NCBI RefSeq assembly: GCF_900108585.1
Contig: NZ_UESZ01000001.1
Coordinates: forward strand, 2,728,001 to 2,792,000
DNA from: Branchiibius hedensis
GTDB lineage: Bacteria > Actinomycetota > Actinomycetes > Actinomycetales > Dermatophilaceae
Direction: 5' to 3'
Length of the DNA stretch: 64,000 bases
The position numbers were made by a program, and so were the translations under genes. Numbering within the stretch: position 1 is the stretch's first letter; each line of letters starts with the position of its first letter. The notes below the pieces were generated by a model. The model saw only the letters and a program-made list of their open reading frames with translations, made no database searches and had not been told where the DNA came from. Shown here piece after piece: positions 1 through 12,935 of the stretch.

Positions 1-465
1 ACGGGGGCCGACGTGCTGATGTCGACGACCGCCGATCCGGGATTTGCGCCGCTGCTCAGGAGGATTCGGCCGCGCACCTCCGTCTTCACCGCGAACATCT
101 GGGGCATCGCACAACGGCAGGGTGCCTACGTGCTGGACATGTGGAACCTGCGGGTGCTGCGCGATCCGCGCCTGTGGGCCACCGACCGCCTACACCTGAC
201 CACGGAGGGCCACCAGCGGGTCGCCGCCCAGGCCGCATGGGCGCTCGGAGACCGGGACACCGAACGCGACTGGGCGATACCGTTGCCGCCAGCACCCCCA
301 CTGTCGCGGATTGCCGCCGTTCGTGGACACGCAGAATGGGCCCAGGAATACCTTGGACCCTGGGTGCACCGACGGCTCACCGGCCGCAGCAGTGGCGACA
401 ACCTATTGCCGAAACGACCCGAGCTCGCCCCCATCGATCCGACACCCCCAGGAGACACCGCATGA
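1..465 (+). CDS. SGNH/GDSL-type hydrolase, C-terminal part (5' end outside window)
   Basis: The reading frame is open from the first base, so the gene begins upstream of the window. The visible 150 or so residues carry DRLHLTTEGH, the Asp-x-x-His block (block V) that supplies the catalytic Asp and His in SGNH hydrolases. The nucleophile Ser block would lie upstream and cannot be seen. The tail after the His block is basic and proline-rich with no recognisable domain. The stop overlaps the modA start in ATGA, so it may be co-transcribed with the molybdate operon, though the functions look unrelated. Substrate unknown; SGNH enzymes include esterases and lipases. Confidence 0.6.
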   Translation, partial: TGADVLMSTTADPGFAPLLRRIRPRTSVFTANIWGIAQRQGAYVLDMWNLRVLRDPRLWATDRLHLTTEGHQRVAAQAAWALGDRDTERDWAIPLPPAPPLSRIAAVRGHAEWAQEYLGPWVHRRLTGRSSGDNLLPKRPELAPIDPTPPGDTA

Positions 466-1259
466 GCTACCTGCCCACCCGTATCGCGGCGGCCGCTGCC
501 GCTGGCACCGTCCTGCTCGCTGGCTGCAGTTCGACCTCGTCGTCGCCGTCCGCCACGACCGGCACTGGCACCAGCACGTCGAGTGCGACCGGCAAGAAGA
601 CCGTCACGATCCTCGCGGCTGCATCCCTGACGGAGGCCTTCAAGAAGATTGCCGCCGAGGTGATGAAGGAGCACCCGGACCTGGACATCAAGATCAGTTT
701 CGGTGCCAGCTCGACGCTCGCGACCCAGTTGAACAACGGTGTCGACGCCGACATCATCGCGCTGGCCGACGAGAAGTCGAAGACGACGATCACGCCGTCC
801 CTGATCGAGGGCAAGCCGACGCAGCTCTTCGCGACGAACCGGTTGGAGATCGCCACTCCCGCAGGCAACCCGGCGCACGTGACCGGCCTTGCGTCGCTGA
901 GCAATTCGTCGATCGACACCGTGCTCTGCGCCAAGCAGGTGCCCTGTGGCCGCGCCGCTCAGACCGTCCTGGCCAAGGCCGACGTGACCCCGCACGTGAT
1001 CAGCTTCGAGTCCGACGTGAAGGCCACGCTGGCCAAGGTGAAGACCGGTGACGCCGACGCAGCGATCGTCTACCAGACCGACGTCTCCTCGGCCGGCTCG
1101 ACCGTCACGGGTGTCGTGATCCCCGAGGACCAGAACACCGTCACCAAGCTGCCCATCGTGCAACTGACCAACACCGAGGGTGCCAAGGAGTTCTACGAGG
1201 CTGTCACCTCCAGCGAGGGTCAGGACATCCTGAAGAGCCTGGGCTTCGGGCAGGTCTGA
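462..1259 (+). CDS. modA: Molybdate-binding lipoprotein ModA
   Basis: Periplasmic-type solute-binding protein that captures molybdate (or tungstate) for the ModBC transporter. It starts with a short basic region, an Ala-rich hydrophobic stretch and the lipobox LAGC, with Cys near residue 22, so the protein should be lipid-anchored. A Ser/Thr linker follows, then VTILAAASLTEAFKKI, the typical ModA opening in which the early Ser contacts the oxyanion, and later FGASSTLATQL. At 265 residues it has the normal family length. The ATG at 462 was chosen because it puts the signal peptide at the N-terminus. modB and modC follow directly, which supports the assignment. Confidence 0.9.
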   Translation: MSYLPTRIAAAAAAGTVLLAGCSSTSSSPSATTGTGTSTSSATGKKTVTILAAASLTEAFKKIAAEVMKEHPDLDIKISFGASSTLATQLNNGVDADIIALADEKSKTTITPSLIEGKPTQLFATNRLEIATPAGNPAHVTGLASLSNSSIDTVLCAKQVPCGRAAQTVLAKADVTPHVISFESDVKATLAKVKTGDADAAIVYQTDVSSAGSTVTGVVIPEDQNTVTKLPIVQLTNTEGAKEFYEAVTSSEGQDILKSLGFGQV

Positions 1260-1268
1260 CCTGCCGCT

Positions 1269-2060
1269 GTGGCTGGCAGCCACGGGCGCAGCCCCCTTCG
1301 CAGCCCACTAGCGCTTCTGGCGCTAGTGGGCTTGGCGTTGCTGGCTATTCCATTGGCGTCACTGCTGATCCGCGTCTCCTGGACGAGCCTGGGACCCGAT
1401 CTGCAGACCGCCGGCGCCAAGGACGCGATCTGGTTGTCGATCCGCACCACGTTGACGACCGTGGTGCTCTGCCTGCTCTTAGGTACGCCGCTCGCTTGGG
1501 TTCTCGCGCGTAGCGAGGGTCGGTGGGTGCCCTGGGTCCGCGCTGTCGTCACGGTGCCGTTGGTGCTGCCACCGGCCGTGGGCGGTGTCGCGTTGCTGCT
1601 GGCCTGGGGACGGACCGGGGTGATCGGCGGTCCGCTCTACGACTGGTTCGGCTGGCGGCTGCCCTACAACTGGACGCGGGTCGTCATCGCCGAGGTCTTC
1701 GTGGCGCTGCCGTTCTTCGTCCTCGCGGTGGAGGGTGCCATGCGGTCCCTCGACCCGCGCTACGACGACATCGCCTCAACGCTGGGCGCTACTCCGACAA
1801 GGACATTCAGTCGGGTCGTCATCCCGCAGGTGCTGCCGGGCATCGCGGCGGGGGCCATGCTCGCCTGGGCGCGCGCGCTGGGTGAGTTCGGCGCCACGAT
1901 CACCTTTGCGGGCTCCTTCCCCGGCACGACACAGACCGCTCCGCTCGCGGTCTACCAGGCGCTCGACATCGATCAGAACGCCGCGACCGCCCTGGCCGTG
2001 ATCATGTTGCTGGTGTGCGTGGTCGTGCTGGCCGCGCTGCGCGGGAAGTGGCTGCGGTGA
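1269..2060 (+). CDS. modB: Molybdate ABC transporter permease ModB
   Basis: Membrane subunit of the molybdate importer, 263 residues with about five to six hydrophobic segments. The cytoplasmic EAA-type coupling loop is visible around residues 175-200 (LGATPTRTFSRVVIPQVLPG, then ARALGEFGAT), which docks on ModC. The GTG at 1269, ten bases after the modA stop, was taken as the start; no strong ribosome site is seen. That GTG is the first base of a short 6-bp hairpin (1269-1283), and a 13-bp hairpin lies in codons 12-22, so translation initiation may be structurally restrained. It overlaps modC by 4 bases. Confidence 0.88.
   Translation: MAGSHGRSPLRSPLALLALVGLALLAIPLASLLIRVSWTSLGPDLQTAGAKDAIWLSIRTTLTTVVLCLLLGTPLAWVLARSEGRWVPWVRAVVTVPLVLPPAVGGVALLLAWGRTGVIGGPLYDWFGWRLPYNWTRVVIAEVFVALPFFVLAVEGAMRSLDPRYDDIASTLGATPTRTFSRVVIPQVLPGIAAGAMLAWARALGEFGATITFAGSFPGTTQTAPLAVYQALDIDQNAATALAVIMLLVCVVVLAALRGKWLR
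1302..1332 (+). promoter_or_regulatory. Perfect 13-bp hairpin inside the start of modB
   Basis: AGCCCACTAGCGC (1302-1314) is followed by five bases and its exact reverse complement (1320-1332). It lies just after the modA stop and inside modB codons. There is no T-run, so it is not a standard terminator. Such intra-operon stems commonly stabilise the upstream transcript so the binding protein is made in excess; that role is inferred. Confidence 0.6.
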
Positions 2061-3094
2061 GCGCGCTTTTCGACGGCCGCGTTGAACAGGGCAGCTTCAC
2101 CCTCGAGGTGTCGCTCTCCTTCGAATCCGGCACAGTGACAGGCATTCTCGGTCCGAATGGGTCCGGCAAAACCACGTTGCTCCGCGCAATCGCCGGGCTC
2201 ACCCCGCTTAGCAGTGGCTCGCTGACGGTCGATGACTCCGACTGGACTTCGTTTGCGCCGCAGGATCGTTCGGTGGGTCTGGTGCTCGCTGATCCGGTCC
2301 TCTTCCCGCACCTGAGTGCCACCGACAACGTGGCGTTCGGGCCGCGCTCGCGTGGAGTGGCCGCCTCGGCTGCGGGACAGCGCGCGTTGGAGGAACTCGA
2401 CGCCCTCGGTATCGGCGAACTCGCGTCCCGCAAACCCAAAGCACTGTCGACCGGACAAGCACAGCGCGTCGCCCTAGCCCGGGCCCTCGCGACCGATCCC
2501 GCGGTCCTCCTTCTGGACGAGTCCCTCGCCGGACTGGATCCACAGACGCGGACCTCCGTGCGCGGCGTACTCGCCTCTCGCCTGGCGCATTTCGACGGAA
2601 CAACGATCATGGTCACCCACGATCCCGTCGACGCATTGACCCTGGCGGATGAGTTGGTGTTCCTGGAGGACGGGCGCCTGACCCAGCGCGGCACTCCGGT
2701 GCAGGTGTCGGCTGCTCCGCGATCGGCGTACGCCGCGACGCTGGTCGGTCTGAATCTACTGCCTGGTCACGCGACGGGTGACGGTCTCGTGGCCACGGGT
2801 CTCGGTGAGGTCCGCACCGCCTCGGAGGTCGAAGGCGAGTGCTGGGTGAGCATCCGACCCAACGCAGTGTCGCTGTGGCGCTCGCCCCCGGACGGCTCGC
2901 CGCGCAACACCTGGCAGCTGACCGTGACCGGGGTCGAAGTGCTTGGTCAGACCGCGCGAATCATGCTGTCTGCCAATGACTCCCGCCTCGTCGCTGAGGT
3001 GACCACGCTCGCCGTCAACGAGTTGGGGCTGGTCGCCGGGGCGCAAGCGTGGGCGAGCGTGAAGGCCACCGAGATCGACTGCTACCCGCGTTAG
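2057..3094 (+). CDS. modC: Molybdate ABC transporter ATP-binding protein ModC
   Basis: ATPase subunit of the importer, 345 residues. Walker A is GPNGSGKTT near residue 37, the signature is LSTGQAQRVALARAL, Walker B is VLLLDESLAGLD, and the switch His is in VTHDP. The last 100 residues resemble a TOBE/MOP regulatory domain that binds oxyanion, usual for ModC. The GTG at 2057 overlaps the modB stop (GTGA), so translation is coupled. Longer in-frame extensions upstream lie inside modB and were rejected. The stop overlaps the stop of the convergent deacetylase gene (TTAG), leaving no room for an intergenic terminator. Confidence 0.9.
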   Translation: MSALFDGRVEQGSFTLEVSLSFESGTVTGILGPNGSGKTTLLRAIAGLTPLSSGSLTVDDSDWTSFAPQDRSVGLVLADPVLFPHLSATDNVAFGPRSRGVAASAAGQRALEELDALGIGELASRKPKALSTGQAQRVALARALATDPAVLLLDESLAGLDPQTRTSVRGVLASRLAHFDGTTIMVTHDPVDALTLADELVFLEDGRLTQRGTPVQVSAAPRSAYAATLVGLNLLPGHATGDGLVATGLGEVRTASEVEGECWVSIRPNAVSLWRSPPDGSPRNTWQLTVTGVEVLGQTARIMLSANDSRLVAEVTTLAVNELGLVAGAQAWASVKATEIDCYPR

Positions 3095-4006: not shown

Positions 4007-5053
4007 CTACGCGCCCGCCAGCGCGTCTCGGATCGCGGCAGCGAAGGTGTCGACGTCTTCTTCGGTGGTATCCCAGGCGCACATCCACCGGACCTCGCCG
4101 GTGGTCTCGTCCCAGAAGTAGAACCGGAAGGTCTCCATCAGCTTCAGCGACACCTCGCGCGGCAGGATCGCGAAGACCGCGTTCGCCTGCGTGGGGCGGG
4201 GCAGCGTGACGACATCAGCGACAGCGTCCGCCAGCCGCGCAGCCATCGCGTTCGCGTGCCCGGCGGAGGTCAGGTAGAGGTCATCCGACAGCAGCGCGAG
4301 CAACTGCGCCGACAGGAAGCGCATCTTGGACGCCAGCTGCATCGACTGCTTACGCAGGAAGACGATTCCGTGCACCGCAGCAGGATTCAGCACTACGACG
4401 GCCTCCGCGCCGAGTACGCCGTTCTTGGTGCCACCGAAGGACAGGATGTCCACGCCGGTGTCCGTGATCAGTTCCGCCAACGAGACTCCGAGCGAAACCA
4501 CCGCATTGCTGATCCGCGACCCGTCGACGTGCAGCACCAGCTCATGCGCGTGCGCCCAGGCAGCGAGCTGCCGGATCTCCTCGACCGTGTACGCCGTTCC
4601 CAGCTCGGTGGTCTGGGTGATCGACACCGCACCGACCGGCGCGGCGTGTTCGTCGCCCACCCGCAGCGGGAATGCGTCGAGCAACTCCGGAGTCAGCTTC
4701 CCGTCAACAGTGGGGATGGTCTTGAGCTTCAGGTGCCCGACACTCTCCGGCGCGGCCCCTTCGTCGACGTTGATGTGTGCCGTCTCCGCACAGACCACCG
4801 ACTCCCAGCGCTGCGTGACCGACTGCAGCGCAATGACATTCGCACCGGTGCCGTTGAAAACGGGGAACACCTCGACCGGTGCCTCGAACAACTCCGACAT
4901 CCGCTCGCGCAAGGCAGCCGTGTAGTCGTCCTCACCGTAGGCGACCTGATGGCCGCCGTTCGCCGCGGCCACGGCATCGAGCACCGAAGGATGGACACCG
5001 GCGTAGTTGTCACTGGCGAAACCGCGCGCCGACACGTCGTGCAAGGAAGTCAT
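4007..5053 (-). CDS. Threonine aldolase family PLP enzyme
   Basis: Fold-type I PLP lyase of the beta-eliminating lyase/low-specificity threonine aldolase family, which cleaves L-threonine or allo-threonine to glycine and acetaldehyde. The N-terminal FASDNYAGVHPSVL is the usual opening, NGTGANV binds the cofactor phosphate, HVDGSRISNA provides the Asp and Arg near PLP, and SFGGTKNG carries the Schiff-base Lys. 348 residues, normal length. The ATG at 5053 was chosen because the family starts just before FxSDN; upstream in-frame codons overlap the SDR gene. Last gene of a three-gene leftward operon, 10 bases after the SDR. Confidence 0.82.
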   Translation of the reverse strand: MTSLHDVSARGFASDNYAGVHPSVLDAVAAANGGHQVAYGEDDYTAALRERMSELFEAPVEVFPVFNGTGANVIALQSVTQRWESVVCAETAHINVDEGAAPESVGHLKLKTIPTVDGKLTPELLDAFPLRVGDEHAAPVGAVSITQTTELGTAYTVEEIRQLAAWAHAHELVLHVDGSRISNAVVSLGVSLAELITDTGVDILSFGGTKNGVLGAEAVVVLNPAAVHGIVFLRKQSMQLASKMRFLSAQLLALLSDDLYLTSAGHANAMAARLADAVADVVTLPRPTQANAVFAILPREVSLKLMETFRFYFWDETTGEVRWMCAWDTTEEDVDTFAAAIRDALAGA

Positions 5054-5063
5054 GAAGACAAGG

Positions 5064-5756
5064 TCACCACACGGCGCCGTTGATCTCGGCAGCGGGCCGG
5101 TCCCACAACCCCACCAGTTCCGCGGCCAGGTCATCCACGTCAGTGAAGTTGCGATACGCCTTCGACGGATTCGCCTCGCGCATCTGCGGAGTCACCAACG
5201 CCATGATCCGAATCACCGATGCTGCCGCCGCCGGATCGTCGGAGGAGTGCGCGAACGAGTCGGCCACCGACCGAGTCCAGGATTCGGCGGCCGCCTTCGC
5301 CGCGGCGTACGGCGCATTGGTCGCCGTGGGCTTGGCCACCGAGGTCGATGACACTATCGCCAGGCGCCCGCGCGGACTAGCGACCAACGCGTCATGCAGC
5401 GCCCGCGAGGTGTGCTGCAGCGTGCGAATCAGATTCTCGTGCAACCAATCCCAGTCGGCCAGGTCGGTCTCGACGATGCCCTTGCCGCCGCGCCAACCGC
5501 CCACCAGGTGCAGCAGACCGTCGACGTGACCGTAGGTCTCAACCAGTTCGTGCCCCCACGCCAGGGTGGCGGCCTCGTCGGTGAGATCCACGACTGACGG
5601 TACGACGCCCGGCCCTTCCAGCGCAGCGAGGCGTTCCTCTGAGCGCCCGACCGCGACGACCGTCGCGCCAGAAGCGGCCGCGGCCCGCGTCGTCGCACGA
5701 CCAAGATCACCGGCCGCGCCGGCAACGACGACGACCAGACCGGACAGGTCCGTCAC
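5064..5756 (-). CDS. SDR family oxidoreductase
   Basis: Classical short-chain dehydrogenase of 230 residues. The dinucleotide site is VVVAGAAGDLGRATT at residues 8-22 and the active site has SSTS followed by YAAAK (Tyr and Lys catalytic pair) around residues 140-160. Arg in VAVGRSEER after strand 2 suggests NADP(H). Substrate unknown. The ATG start overlaps the stop of the upstream DUF6421-like gene by 4 bases and the aldolase gene follows closely, so the three are translated together. Confidence 0.8.
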   Translation of the reverse strand: MTDLSGLVVVVAGAAGDLGRATTRAAAASGATVVAVGRSEERLAALEGPGVVPSVVDLTDEAATLAWGHELVETYGHVDGLLHLVGGWRGGKGIVETDLADWDWLHENLIRTLQHTSRALHDALVASPRGRLAIVSSTSVAKPTATNAPYAAAKAAAESWTRSVADSFAHSSDDPAAAASVIRIMALVTPQMREANPSKAYRNFTDVDDLAAELVGLWDRPAAEINGAVW

Positions 5757-7879
5757 GCCGCGACAACCTGCGGGGCCGGGCTGACACCAGTGATGCCACG
5801 GGTCGAATCGATCACCGGCGCCATCTTCTTGCGCAGCGACTCGTAGAAGACGTTGAGCGGGAACTCATCGGGCTGGACCAGGTCGACCAGCGCTTTGACC
5901 GGACCGTCGAGCGGCAGGTTGGCAGCGCCCTTGGCCCATGCGGACGCGGGGTGCGGTGCGACGTACGCCATGACGAACTCGTACGACGCCAGCCAGTGGC
6001 CGACACGCGAGCGGTCGATCCCGGTGCGGTAGAGCGTCTCGACCTCTTCACACAACTGCACGATCACCGACGGCACCCGGCGCCAGTCGAAGGACAGCCG
6101 GTTGTCGGTCCAGCGCAGTGCGTCGTTCTTGTGCAGGTAGGCGAACATCAACTGGCCGCCCAGTCCGTCGTAGTTGCGGACGCGGTCCCCGGTGATGGGG
6201 AAACGGAACAGACGGTCGAAAAGCACTGCCAGCTGGACGAATCGGGCGTAGGGCTGACCCTCTTCCTCCAGGATGACCGCTTGGCGGAAGGTGTTCAGGT
6301 CGCAGCGCAGTTCTTCCAGCGCGTACATCCAGAACGGCATCCGCTGCTTGATCATGAACGGGTCGAAGGGCAGGTCGCCGTGACTGTGCGTGCGGTCGTG
6401 GATCAGGTCCCACATCGCGAAGGTCTCCTGCGCTAGGGACTGCGACGCGAGCAACCGCTCGGCGTCCGGCGGCAGGTCCAGCGACAGCAGGGACGATGCC
6501 GCGGTGACGACCTCGCGGAAGCGCGCACCCTCGCGGTCGCAGAAGATCGCGCCCCAGTGGAACTTCGGAACCTCCCGCACCGCAACAGTTTCGGGGAAGA
6601 GCACCGCTGAGTTGGTGTCGTAGCCGGGTGTGAAGTCGATGAAGTTGACCGGCAGGAACATCGTGTTGTCGTAGGTCGCCTCGACCTGCGCCAGCCAGTC
6701 CGGCCACATGACCTTGATCAGCAGCGCCTCGAACACCCGGTCGGGGTTGCCGTTCTGCGTGTACATCGGGAAGAGCACCAGGTGTTCGATCCCGTCCTCG
6801 CGGCACAGGTCCGGGCGGAAGAGCACGAGGGAGTCCAGGAAGTCCGGCTTGCCGAATCCCTCGTCACGCCAACGGGACAGGTCACCCGGCAGGGCCGCCA
6901 GGTAGTCCGCGTCGTGCGGGAACTGCGGCGCGAGTTCACCCACCCGGTCGATCATGACCTGGACGAGCTCGGCCGCCCGGGACACGTCGTACGTCGATGA
7001 ATCGATCGAACCGTCCTTGGCCTGCATCAGGCGCAACTCCTCGACCGCGTCTTTCAACGCGAACCACGCTGGCGATGAAGCGATTTCACTGTGCGCGACG
7101 GTCGCAGCGGGCGCGCGGCCAGCGGCCGATGCCCAGGTGACGACGTTGCTCCAGAACCGCTTGTGGTCCAACTCGGCGATGCTGTCGTCACCGACCAGGT
7201 CCGAGTCGGCCAGGACGACCACCCGACCCGCGTCGACCCGTGCGGCAACCGCGAGCGCCTCACCTGCGGGGTACGCCGAGGCGCTGGTCCGTGCCAGAAC
7301 CGTCACGTCCGCGTCGGCGGAGGTTTCGATCACCCCGGACCGGTAGAAGCACAACTCGCCGACCCCGGCCAGCAGCCCCTGGCCAAGTCCCCCGGCGACT
7401 TCGCCGAGCACCCAGGTCGCGTTGCTCTGGTGGCGGCGGCCACCGTCCGCGCTCTCGTGCACCAGCGTGCTGCGGACGTGCAGACCAAATCGGGCCAGCA
7501 AGTCGTTGACGTTGTTGCCGTGGGTGTCCTGATCGCACTCGGCGAGCACGACCAGGCCACCGCCGGCGCGGACGAACGACTCGATGGCGTCCAACTCAGC
7601 GGGATCGAAGACCGGGGACAGCGCACCGGCGACACGCTCCGAGGCGGCCTGCGCCGGGTGGGCAATCACGTAGACGTCGGCAACCCGCAGTTGGTCGGCA
7701 GTGACTGCGCCACCCTCGCGCGGTACGACCTGCAGGCCGCGGGCGCGCAGGGCATCAGCGGCCAGATGCAAGGAGGCGTCGGCGGGATTGGCCGGGTTCA
7801 TCGCGGCGGCCTGGGTGCGGTCCAGCGCCCAGGCGCTGCTGTGGGCCTGCTCGACCAGAACAGTGGGGAACTCAGTCAT
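5753..7879 (-). CDS. DUF6421-like protein with N-terminal GATase-like domain
   Basis: 708 residues, no established function. Residues 1-250 look like a class I glutaminase/ThuA-type Rossmann domain (VYVIAHPAQ, FVRAGGGLVVLAECDQD, VVVLADSDLVGDD) without an obvious catalytic Cys. From about residue 270 the protein matches my memory of DUF6421 proteins (AKDGSIDSSTYD, PMYTQNGNPDRV, FIDFTPGYDTNSA). Around residue 494 is HDRTHSHGDLPFDP, and 25 residues after His498 comes EELRCD, an ExxxD pattern. This mimics a gluzincin metallopeptidase site with Asp for Glu, though that is inference. First gene of the operon with the SDR and aldolase. Confidence 0.6.
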   Translation of the reverse strand: MTEFPTVLVEQAHSSAWALDRTQAAAMNPANPADASLHLAADALRARGLQVVPREGGAVTADQLRVADVYVIAHPAQAASERVAGALSPVFDPAELDAIESFVRAGGGLVVLAECDQDTHGNNVNDLLARFGLHVRSTLVHESADGGRRHQSNATWVLGEVAGGLGQGLLAGVGELCFYRSGVIETSADADVTVLARTSASAYPAGEALAVAARVDAGRVVVLADSDLVGDDSIAELDHKRFWSNVVTWASAAGRAPAATVAHSEIASSPAWFALKDAVEELRLMQAKDGSIDSSTYDVSRAAELVQVMIDRVGELAPQFPHDADYLAALPGDLSRWRDEGFGKPDFLDSLVLFRPDLCREDGIEHLVLFPMYTQNGNPDRVFEALLIKVMWPDWLAQVEATYDNTMFLPVNFIDFTPGYDTNSAVLFPETVAVREVPKFHWGAIFCDREGARFREVVTAASSLLSLDLPPDAERLLASQSLAQETFAMWDLIHDRTHSHGDLPFDPFMIKQRMPFWMYALEELRCDLNTFRQAVILEEEGQPYARFVQLAVLFDRLFRFPITGDRVRNYDGLGGQLMFAYLHKNDALRWTDNRLSFDWRRVPSVIVQLCEEVETLYRTGIDRSRVGHWLASYEFVMAYVAPHPASAWAKGAANLPLDGPVKALVDLVQPDEFPLNVFYESLRKKMAPVIDSTRGITGVSPAPQVVAA

Positions 7880-10279: not shown

Positions 10280-11152
10280 ATGACGCAGTCAGCACCCACC
10301 ACCAGTTCCATCGAGCGGGTCACGGTCCTGGGCACCGGAGTCCTCGGAGCGCAGATCGCTTTCCAGTCCGCCTACTCCGGAAAGCAGGTCACCGCCTACG
10401 ACATCTCGGAGGAAGCCCTCGACAAAGCGCGAGGTACCTTCGACGGTCTGGTCGCGACGTACGCCAAGGAAGTGCCCGGCGCCGCGGACGGAAAAGCCCA
10501 GGCAGCCCGCGACTCACTCACCCTCACTGCGGACCTGCAGGCGGCGGTGGCAGACGCGGATCTGGTGATCGAGGCAATCCCGGAGGTCGTGGATCTCAAA
10601 CGCGGGACATTCGCCAAGATCAACGAATTCGCCCCCGCCGCAACGATTTTCGCCACCAACTCCTCCACGCTGCTGCCCAGCGCGATCAGCGACGCCAGCG
10701 GCCGCGAGGACCGTTTCCTGGCGTTGCACTTCGCCAACCAGATCTGGCGGGCCAACACCGCCGAGGTGATGGGGACGCCGAAGACCGATCCGGCCGTCTT
10801 CGACCGCGTGGTCCAGTTCGCCAGCGAGATCGGCATGGTGCCGGTGCCGATCCACAAGGAGAAGGCCGGCTACGTCCTGAACTCCCTGCTGGTGCCGTTC
10901 CTGGGCGCGGCCCTCGAACTGGCCGCTGGAGGGTATGCCGAACCCAAGGACGTCGATAACGTGTGGCGCATCGGCACGGGCGCACCCCTGGGCCCGTTCC
11001 AGCTCTACGACATCATCGGCCTGGTCACGCCGTACAACATCATGAGCCACGGTGACGCGGATGCCCGCAAGCTCGCCGAATGGCTGAAGGTCAACTACAT
11101 CGACAAGGGCAAGACGGGTCTCGCCGCCGGCGAGGGCTTCTATCAGTACTGA
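10280..11152 (+). CDS. 3-hydroxyacyl-CoA dehydrogenase family protein
   Basis: NAD-dependent dehydrogenase of the 3-hydroxybutyryl-CoA dehydrogenase family, 290 residues. VTVLGTGVLGAQIA (residues 10-23) is the NAD-binding loop, NSSTLLPSAI and the catalytic HFANQIW (His in place of HFFNP) follow, and the C-terminal helical domain has GYVLNSLLVPFL. The HF(A)N variation suggests a substrate other than short acyl-CoA. It is the first gene of a two-gene operon with oleate hydratase (19-base gap), so oxidation of the 10-hydroxy fatty acid made by that enzyme is a plausible alternative. Start ATG 10280 has an excellent AAGGAGG site. Confidence 0.75.
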   Translation: MTQSAPTTSSIERVTVLGTGVLGAQIAFQSAYSGKQVTAYDISEEALDKARGTFDGLVATYAKEVPGAADGKAQAARDSLTLTADLQAAVADADLVIEAIPEVVDLKRGTFAKINEFAPAATIFATNSSTLLPSAISDASGREDRFLALHFANQIWRANTAEVMGTPKTDPAVFDRVVQFASEIGMVPVPIHKEKAGYVLNSLLVPFLGAALELAAGGYAEPKDVDNVWRIGTGAPLGPFQLYDIIGLVTPYNIMSHGDADARKLAEWLKVNYIDKGKTGLAAGEGFYQY

Positions 11153-11171: not shown

Positions 11172-12935
11172 ATGTACTACAGCAGCGGTAACTATGAAGC
11201 CTTTGCCCGCCCGCGCAAGCCGGAGGGGGTGGACGACAAGACCGCCTGGTTCGTCGGCGCCGGCCTGGCCTCCCTGTCGGGCGCGGCCTTCCTGATCCGC
11301 GACGGTCAGATGGATGGTTCGAAGATCACCATCCTGGAAGAGCTCAAGCTCCCTGGTGGCGCGCTCGATGGGATCAAGGAGCCCAAGAAGGGTTTCGTGA
11401 TCCGCGGTGGCCGCGAGATGGAGAACCACTTCGAGTGCCTCTGGGACCTCTTCCGCAGCATCCCCTCGATCGAGGTCGAGGGCGCCAGCGTCCTGGATGA
11501 GTTCTACTGGCTGAACAAGGACGACCCGAACTTCTCCCTCGAACGCGCCACGATGGACCGCGGGCAGAGCGCGCACACCGACAACAAGTTCATGATGTCG
11601 CAGAAGGCGCAGAACGAACTGGTCAAGCTCTTCATGGCCACGCGGAAGGAGATGGAGAACAAGCGGATCGACGAGGTCTTCACCGACGAGTTCTTCAAGA
11701 GCAACTTCTGGCTCTACTGGCAGACGATGTTCGCCTTCGAGAAGTGGCACTCGGCGCTGGAGATGAAGCTCTACGTGCACCGCTTCATCCACCACATCGG
11801 CGGCCTGCCGGACTTCAGTGCACTGAAGTTCACCAAGTACAACCAGTACGAGTCCCTGGTGCTGCCTCTCTACAAGTGGCTGCTGGACCACGGGGTGACC
11901 TTCCACTTCGACACCACGGTCACCGATGTCGACTTCGACCTCAGTGACCCGGAAAAGAAGAAGGCGACCTACATCCACTGGATCAAGGATGGCGCCGAAG
12001 GTGGTGTCGACCTGGGTGAGAACGACCTGGTCTTCATGACCATCGGCTCACTGACCGAGAACTCCGACGAGGGCGACCAGCACACCCCGGCCAAGCTCAA
12101 CACCGGGCCGGCTCCGGCCTGGGATCTGTGGCGCAAGATCTCTGCAAAGCACGAATCCTTCGGCCATCCGGACGTTTTCGCCGGTGACATCGAGAAGTCC
12201 AAGTGGGAATCAGCCACGGTGACCACGCTGGACCACCGGATCCCGGAGTACATCCAGAAAATCACCAAACGGGACCCGTTCAGCGGAAAGGTCGTCACCG
12301 GCGGCATCGTCACCGTCAAGGACTCTTCCTGGTTCATGAGCTGGACCGTCAACCGGCAGCCGCACTTCAAGCAGCAGCCCAAGGATCAGATCGTGGTCTG
12401 GGTCTACGCCCTGAACAGCGACACTCCCGGTGACTACACCAAGAAGTCGATCCAGGAGTGCACCGGTGAGGAGATCGCGGCCGAGTGGCTCTACCATCTG
12501 GGCGTGCCCGAGTCCGACATCCCCGAGTTGGCCGCGAACGGCGCGAAGACAGTGCCGTGCATGATGCCCTACGTCACGGCGTTCTTCATGCCGCGCCAGG
12601 CCGGCGACCGGCCAGACGTCGTGCCCGAAGGATCGGTCAACTTCGCCTTCATCGGCCAGTTCGCCGAGTCCAAGGAGCGTGACTGCATCTTCACGACCGA
12701 GTACTCCGTGCGGACCCCGATGGAAGCGGTCTACACCCTGCTCGACATCGAGCGAGGTGTCCCCGAAGTCTTCAACTCGACGTACGACGTGCGCAGCCTG
12801 CTCACCGCGACCAGCCGGTTGCGCGACGGCAAGGAACTGACACTGCCCGGTCTGAAGTTCGCCCAGCCGTGGATGAAGACCAAGGTGACCAAGAACGAAG
12901 TCGGCGAGTTGCTGGCCAAGTACGGCGTCATCTGA
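11172..12935 (+). CDS. ohyA: Oleate hydratase
   Basis: FAD-dependent fatty-acid hydratase that adds water to the cis-9 double bond of oleate or linoleate, giving 10-hydroxy acids. 587 residues, usual length. The FAD Rossmann region is AWFVGAGLASLSGAAFL (residues 25-42) with ILEELKLPGGALDG, GGREMENHFECLWDL near residue 80 contains the catalytic Glu region, and KYNQYESLVLPL carries the conserved active-site Tyr. Other hallmarks are SSWFMSWTVNRQPHF and GQFAESKERDCIFTTEYSVR. Cytosolic or membrane-associated. A GAAGGAG site precedes the ATG. In the same operon as the dehydrogenase upstream; a strong hairpin follows the stop. Confidence 0.93.
   Translation: MYYSSGNYEAFARPRKPEGVDDKTAWFVGAGLASLSGAAFLIRDGQMDGSKITILEELKLPGGALDGIKEPKKGFVIRGGREMENHFECLWDLFRSIPSIEVEGASVLDEFYWLNKDDPNFSLERATMDRGQSAHTDNKFMMSQKAQNELVKLFMATRKEMENKRIDEVFTDEFFKSNFWLYWQTMFAFEKWHSALEMKLYVHRFIHHIGGLPDFSALKFTKYNQYESLVLPLYKWLLDHGVTFHFDTTVTDVDFDLSDPEKKKATYIHWIKDGAEGGVDLGENDLVFMTIGSLTENSDEGDQHTPAKLNTGPAPAWDLWRKISAKHESFGHPDVFAGDIEKSKWESATVTTLDHRIPEYIQKITKRDPFSGKVVTGGIVTVKDSSWFMSWTVNRQPHFKQQPKDQIVVWVYALNSDTPGDYTKKSIQECTGEEIAAEWLYHLGVPESDIPELAANGAKTVPCMMPYVTAFFMPRQAGDRPDVVPEGSVNFAFIGQFAESKERDCIFTTEYSVRTPMEAVYTLLDIERGVPEVFNSTYDVRSLLTATSRLRDGKELTLPGLKFAQPWMKTKVTKNEVGELLAKYGVI

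Follow-up and report, generated by a model that had tools for sequence, protein, structure and literature searches.

A conserved DUF6421–SDR–aldolase operon in Actinomycetes and its possible role in tetrahydropterin-dependent amino acid oxidation

The DUF6421 protein encoded in the window (the whole stretch of DNA analysed here, 64,000 nucleotides from Branchiibius hedensis) is very probably a PolE-like non-haem Fe(II), tetrahydropterin-dependent oxygenase, and its gene shares with an SDR gene and a threonine aldolase gene an operon that recurs over much of the class Actinomycetes. The three genes may form one metabolic unit, a reading to which we give slightly less than even weight. The oxygenase, its iron held by H494, H498 and E523, would use O2 and pterin to form an oxidising species directed at the side chain of an amino acid, and would thereby beta-hydroxylate the amino acid. 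The SDR would reduce quinonoid dihydropterin with NAD(P)H, allowing oxygenase turnover, and the threonine aldolase would cleave the hydroxylated product, releasing glycine together with an aldehyde or ketone. A gene without curated function is thus placed in a pathway of three steps that names its cofactor and can be tested. More tentatively, we propose that much of the class has a pathway not yet on record, in which an oxygenase outside the aromatic hydroxylases beta-hydroxylates a common amino acid, relies on the reductase of its own operon and passes its product to the aldolase. If true, bacterial tetrahydropterin-dependent amino acid oxidation would extend beyond the aromatic hydroxylases, and Actinomycetes would possess a way of converting an amino acid to glycine that is not yet on record.

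Table 1. Features of the DUF6421 operon in the window (residue numbers refer to the respective protein).
Feature	Residues	Position	Strand	Basis
PLP-dependent L-threonine aldolase family protein		4007..5053	minus	Beta_elim_lyase E 5e-53; 5vye E 9e-76
SDR, 230 aa, predicted QDPR-like pterin-recycling reductase		5064..5756	minus	adh_short E 3e-23; GGWxG; QDPR profile match
GGWRGG of the SDR, signature common with dihydropteridine reductases	86-91	5484..5501	minus	motif comparison
DUF6421 protein gene, 708 aa		5753..7879	minus	ATG start; Pfam DUF6421 E 5e-212
N-terminal GATase1/GIFT-like domain	~4-255	7115..7870	minus	fold matches, conservation
Catalytic DUF6421 domain	~265-690	5810..7087	minus	AF2 model and PolE fold match
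HDRTH (H494, H498), predicted iron-binding histidines	494-498	6386..6400	minus	conservation, PolE motif mutants
EELRCD (E522, E523, D527), E523 predicted as third iron ligand	522-527	6299..6316	minus	conservation, PolE alignment

The assignment of the DUF6421 protein as an Fe/pterin oxygenase is well supported: homology, fold and a conserved site point to it here, and the cofactor dependence has been seen in PolE. The earlier note on this DNA had described a 708-residue protein with a GATase-like N-terminal domain and a DUF6421 region, and both the reading frame and the two domains are borne out. The gene's ATG is preceded by GGAGG just upstream. Pfam DUF6421 (PF19985) covers residues 270-698 with 704.7 bits against a curated cut-off of 25, spanning positions 2-436 of the 437 in the model. 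By sequence, SmPolE and SnPolE come out as the best PDB matches, with E values down to 2e-13. In an AF2 model with a mean pLDDT of 90.8, the best PDB fold match of residues 265-690 is PolE (9j2r; Z 31.6, rmsd 3.6, 366 residues aligned). The description of the protein as uncharacterised is therefore out of date, as the characterisation and crystal structures of PolE date from 2025 (PDB 9J2E/9J2R/9J3G). The function of the family having been opened in that year, the window protein is not categorically new.

According to the PolE paper (PMC12614342), PolE is the DUF6421 enzyme of the polyoxin pathway, is specific for L-Ile and desaturates this substrate at the C3–C4 bond. Its activity is strictly dependent on Fe(II), O2 and BH4, is raised 2-3 fold by added quinonoid dihydropteridine reductase (QDPR) and is lost in motif mutants; the authors also remark on the colocalisation of DUF6421 genes with those of enzymes that modify amino acids. 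The window protein and PolE have in common the Pfam family, the fold, an HE/DxxH...E site and the counterparts of F140 and Y280, but are only ~18-24% identical over the catalytic domain. PolE has 373 residues and no GATase-like domain, and its partner is PolF, whereas the window gene is accompanied by the SDR and the aldolase. Aromatic amino acid hydroxylases (PF00351) resemble the predicted enzyme in their Fe(II)/tetrahydropterin chemistry and 2-His-1-Glu site; in the window protein, however, Pfam gives DUF6421, not PF00351.

In the N-terminal part of the window protein, Pfam matches DUF4350 at residues 91-246. By fold this domain matches the GIFT domain of IFT52 (Z 26.9), and OST48, ThuA-like and GATase1-like folds are also found. 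In a 41-sequence alignment, no conserved class I glutamine amidotransferase Cys is present at the nucleophile elbow, where the consensus reads LAExxQ, and many DUF6421 homologues lack the domain. For these two reasons the domain is likely to serve in binding or assembly, and we regard it as probably a binding domain.

The earlier note had singled out HDRTH at residues 494-498 and, in EELRCD, E523 and D527 as resembling a metal site of the form HxxxH...E, in which Asp stands where HE motifs have Glu. The alignment of homologues that it suggested bears this out: in 41 sequences, which are 24-76% identical to the window protein and include one PolE-like protein, H494, H498, E522, E523 and D527 are invariant, as is every residue of EELRCD except C526, and D495 is nearly invariant. 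PolE Glu230 aligns with E523, which we predict from this alignment to be the third iron ligand, with E522 as the alternative. The spacing from H498 to E523 is X24, one above the X21-23 quoted for the PolE motif in PMC12614342, and E522 would give X23. Two PolE residues that were mutated in deposited structures, F140 and Y280, have the invariant F428 and Y570 as their counterparts, while PolE Y157 corresponds to H441, a variable position. Because F428 and Y570 are invariant while H441 varies, we infer that the cofactor and metal site are shared with PolE and that the substrate pocket is different.

The conservation of the operon proved stronger than the earlier note, which placed the three families together in other actinobacteria, had claimed. 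In a first survey of 47 loci from public genomes, 43 had a DUF6421 gene and enough downstream sequence; every one of these has the aldolase gene no more than 1.9 kb downstream of DUF6421 and in the same orientation, and the SDR gene lies between the two in 19 of those 43. A second survey used 148 genomes sampled evenly from the Actinomycetes. DUF6421 is present in 33, about a fifth, many large-genome lineages included. Besides the window's own locus, 28 loci were examined (the PolE-like locus was left out, and one apparently duplicates a locus of the first survey); downstream of DUF6421, the SDR is found in 27 and the aldolase in 26, in one of which it is broken into pieces. In the two exceptions, which belong to one genus, the aldolase is ~16-25 kb away. 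An SDR ortholog occurs in 32/33 genomes with DUF6421 vs 4/115 without (Fisher p 7e-27, phylogeny ignored), and a close aldolase in 32/33 vs 8/115 (Fisher p 8e-24, phylogeny likewise ignored). Much of the class carries the operon, which is also kept in small genomes of 1.0-1.5 Mb. Given this class-wide linkage and site residues that are invariant down to 24% identity, neither the three-gene arrangement nor the site is due to chance, and the conservation of the operon points to the shared pathway that the note had thought plausible.

The aldolase is the most constant partner of DUF6421; it also occurs without DUF6421 in some genomes. The only other separate gene recurring across lineages encodes an Lrp/AsnC-type regulator, seen at 8 loci of the linkage survey and in keeping with a pathway for amino acids. 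In several freshwater lineages it lies between DUF6421 and the aldolase, replacing the SDR (L018:6818-7276, L027:10088-10543). Pterin carbinolamine dehydratase (PCD) was looked for in that gap and not found. Beyond the three genes and the regulator, no further gene family recurred across lineages in the linkage survey: the remaining recurrent ORFs were same-region ORFs, taken as shadow frames, or were confined to one lineage. As a test of pterin use, co-occurrence with PCD (PF01329) was uninformative, the family being present in 116/148 genomes regardless and showing no association with DUF6421 (26/33 vs 90/115, p 1.0). One genome carries a second DUF6421–SDR copy in which the aldolase is broken into two ORFs (L083, G002:C17), the other copy (L082) being whole. 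At three loci of one genus (L151, L152, L153), a PF00351 hydroxylase gene lies 10-12 kb from the DUF6421 operon; with several other, unrelated ORFs between, this was treated as coincidence.

In the window, the GTG start of the SDR gene overlaps the DUF6421 gene stop by 4 bases and the aldolase gene comes next, as the earlier note had described. The SDR has in common with QDPR the SDR fold, YxxxK, a GGWxGG motif and a similar C-terminal segment. HLVGGWxG is present in all 17 aligned SDRs, and GGWxG in 75/77 DUF6421-linked SDR rows (some of them duplicate loci) vs 0/39 other SDRs collected; four distinct dihydropteridine reductase sequences from the PDB, when aligned, read GGWAGG or GGWSGG at this position. 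In a QDPR profile search, the DUF6421-adjacent SDR is the genome's top match in 12 of the 21 DUF6421-containing genomes that have the SDR, each of which holds many SDRs. A tree places the QDPRs and the linked SDRs on one side of a branch with support 99/96, the QDPR stem being very long (3.04). Finally, the presence of the SDR tracks DUF6421 and not the aromatic amino acid hydroxylases (PF00351), which are absent from the window's genome.

Pterin recycling is nonetheless contested by a reading that keeps the oxygenase assignment and gives the SDR another task: it would oxidise the beta-hydroxy amino acid to its keto form, or reduce the aldehyde released by the aldolase, while pterin is recycled by an unlinked enzyme. 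The window SDR is ~24% identical to QDPR, and generic SDRs score equal or higher. A profile of the linked SDRs finds QDPR 8b5t with E 1.9e-14 but scores generic SDRs above it (84 vs 57 bits), and in a fold comparison generic SDRs fill the top 50, with QDPR not among the 50 matches listed and many ties. Janibacter and Marihabitans loci (L008-L014, L016, L017, L040), like the freshwater lineages above, keep DUF6421 and the aldolase and have no SDR, a counterpoint to the proposed role. No ortholog was found elsewhere in five Janibacter/Marihabitans genomes tested, where relocation of the gene was rejected on a best score of ~66 bits vs ~150 or more for true members. Conversely, the SDR occurs in four sampled genomes without a DUF6421 match (L139, G040:C22; L140; L141; L142), in L139 still beside the aldolase, and no pterin hydroxylase was recognised among the SDR's neighbouring ORFs in these genomes, judged by eye. 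Against this stand the GGWxG motif, common to QDPR and seen in none of the 39 other SDRs, the grouping in the tree, the top profile match in 12 of 21 genomes and the tracking of DUF6421 instead of aromatic amino acid hydroxylases. On these sequence comparisons we find an alternative role for the SDR rather unlikely and favour pterin recycling, leaning modestly towards a pterin reductase.

The ORF of the aldolase extends as far as 5134, a position within the SDR gene. Homologues and the position of an ATG 10 bases past the SDR stop make 5053 the likely start. The PLP lysine, K237 in ORF numbering, lies in FGGTKNG and is invariant in 40 homologues. Threonine aldolase-type enzymes release glycine and an aldehyde from beta-hydroxy amino acids. 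The aldolase of the window groups with the low-specificity L-threonine aldolases (5VYE, E 9e-76) and belongs to the same PLP-dependent family as 5VYE, 1V72 and hydroxytrimethyllysine aldolase; unlike these, it is encoded beside an Fe/pterin-type oxygenase. Hydroxytrimethyllysine aldolase, itself a threonine aldolase, splits an amino acid that has been hydroxylated during carnitine synthesis (PMC11016064), and is thus a direct precedent for a hydroxylation step with aldol cleavage after it. The guanitoxin GntG papers offer indirect precedent only. The balance tilts slightly towards an aldolase that acts on the product of the oxygenase, and we infer, as the simplest account, the sequence of beta-carbon hydroxylation, pterin recycling by the SDR and aldol cleavage of the hydroxylated product. 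Since PolE desaturates Ile between C3 and C4, it is chemically plausible that the oxidant acts on or close to the beta carbon.

As the one assayed member of the family, PolE also provides the counterpoint to hydroxylation, because it desaturates. The window enzyme could accordingly be a PolE-like desaturase whose unsaturated product enters a specialised metabolite, while the aldolase catalyses synthesis instead of cleavage or belongs to another step. The precedent is the desaturation of L-Ile for polyoxin reported in PMC12614342, and the lack of conservation at PolE Y157 (H441 here) means that the substrate may differ. A specialised cluster would, however, sit poorly with the class-wide spread of the operon and its retention in genomes of 1.0-1.5 Mb, and in the linkage survey no further gene family accompanies the three genes and, in some lineages, the Lrp-type regulator across lineages. 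We consider such a desaturase improbable.

The claim of the earlier note that the DUF6421 protein is metalloprotease-like holds for the fold and fails for the chemistry: a zinc metallopeptidase related to dipeptidyl peptidase III (DPP III, MEROPS M49), its catalytic Glu replaced by Asp, has in its favour a related catalytic-domain fold (6eom, Z 18.4 over 362 residues), pointed out for PolE by its authors, and the likeness of EELRCD to the M49 motif EExxxD/E, but is rejected as very improbable on its homology to PolE, which is far closer and an Fe/pterin oxidase, with HxxxH (HDRTH) in place of the DPP III zinc motif HExxGH, which together with the catalytic His is not conserved according to PMC12614342, and with operon partners that are not peptide-related. 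The metalloprotease look of the DUF6421 protein thus reflects a distant fold relationship to DPP III, not present chemistry.

The DUF6421–SDR–aldolase operon as a unit was not found in the literature searched, which for PMC12614342 comprised passages of its text; these name neither this operon nor the likely role of the SDR. Elsewhere in the window, an MCRA family protein of the oleate hydratase type (E 7e-221) is encoded at 11172-12935 on the plus strand, directly after a 3-hydroxyacyl-CoA dehydrogenase (10280-11152, plus strand). Positions 141-3094 of the plus strand hold an ABC transporter set, possibly of the molybdate type, with a solute-binding protein, a permease and an ATP-binding protein by sequence, the first two confirmed by Pfam.
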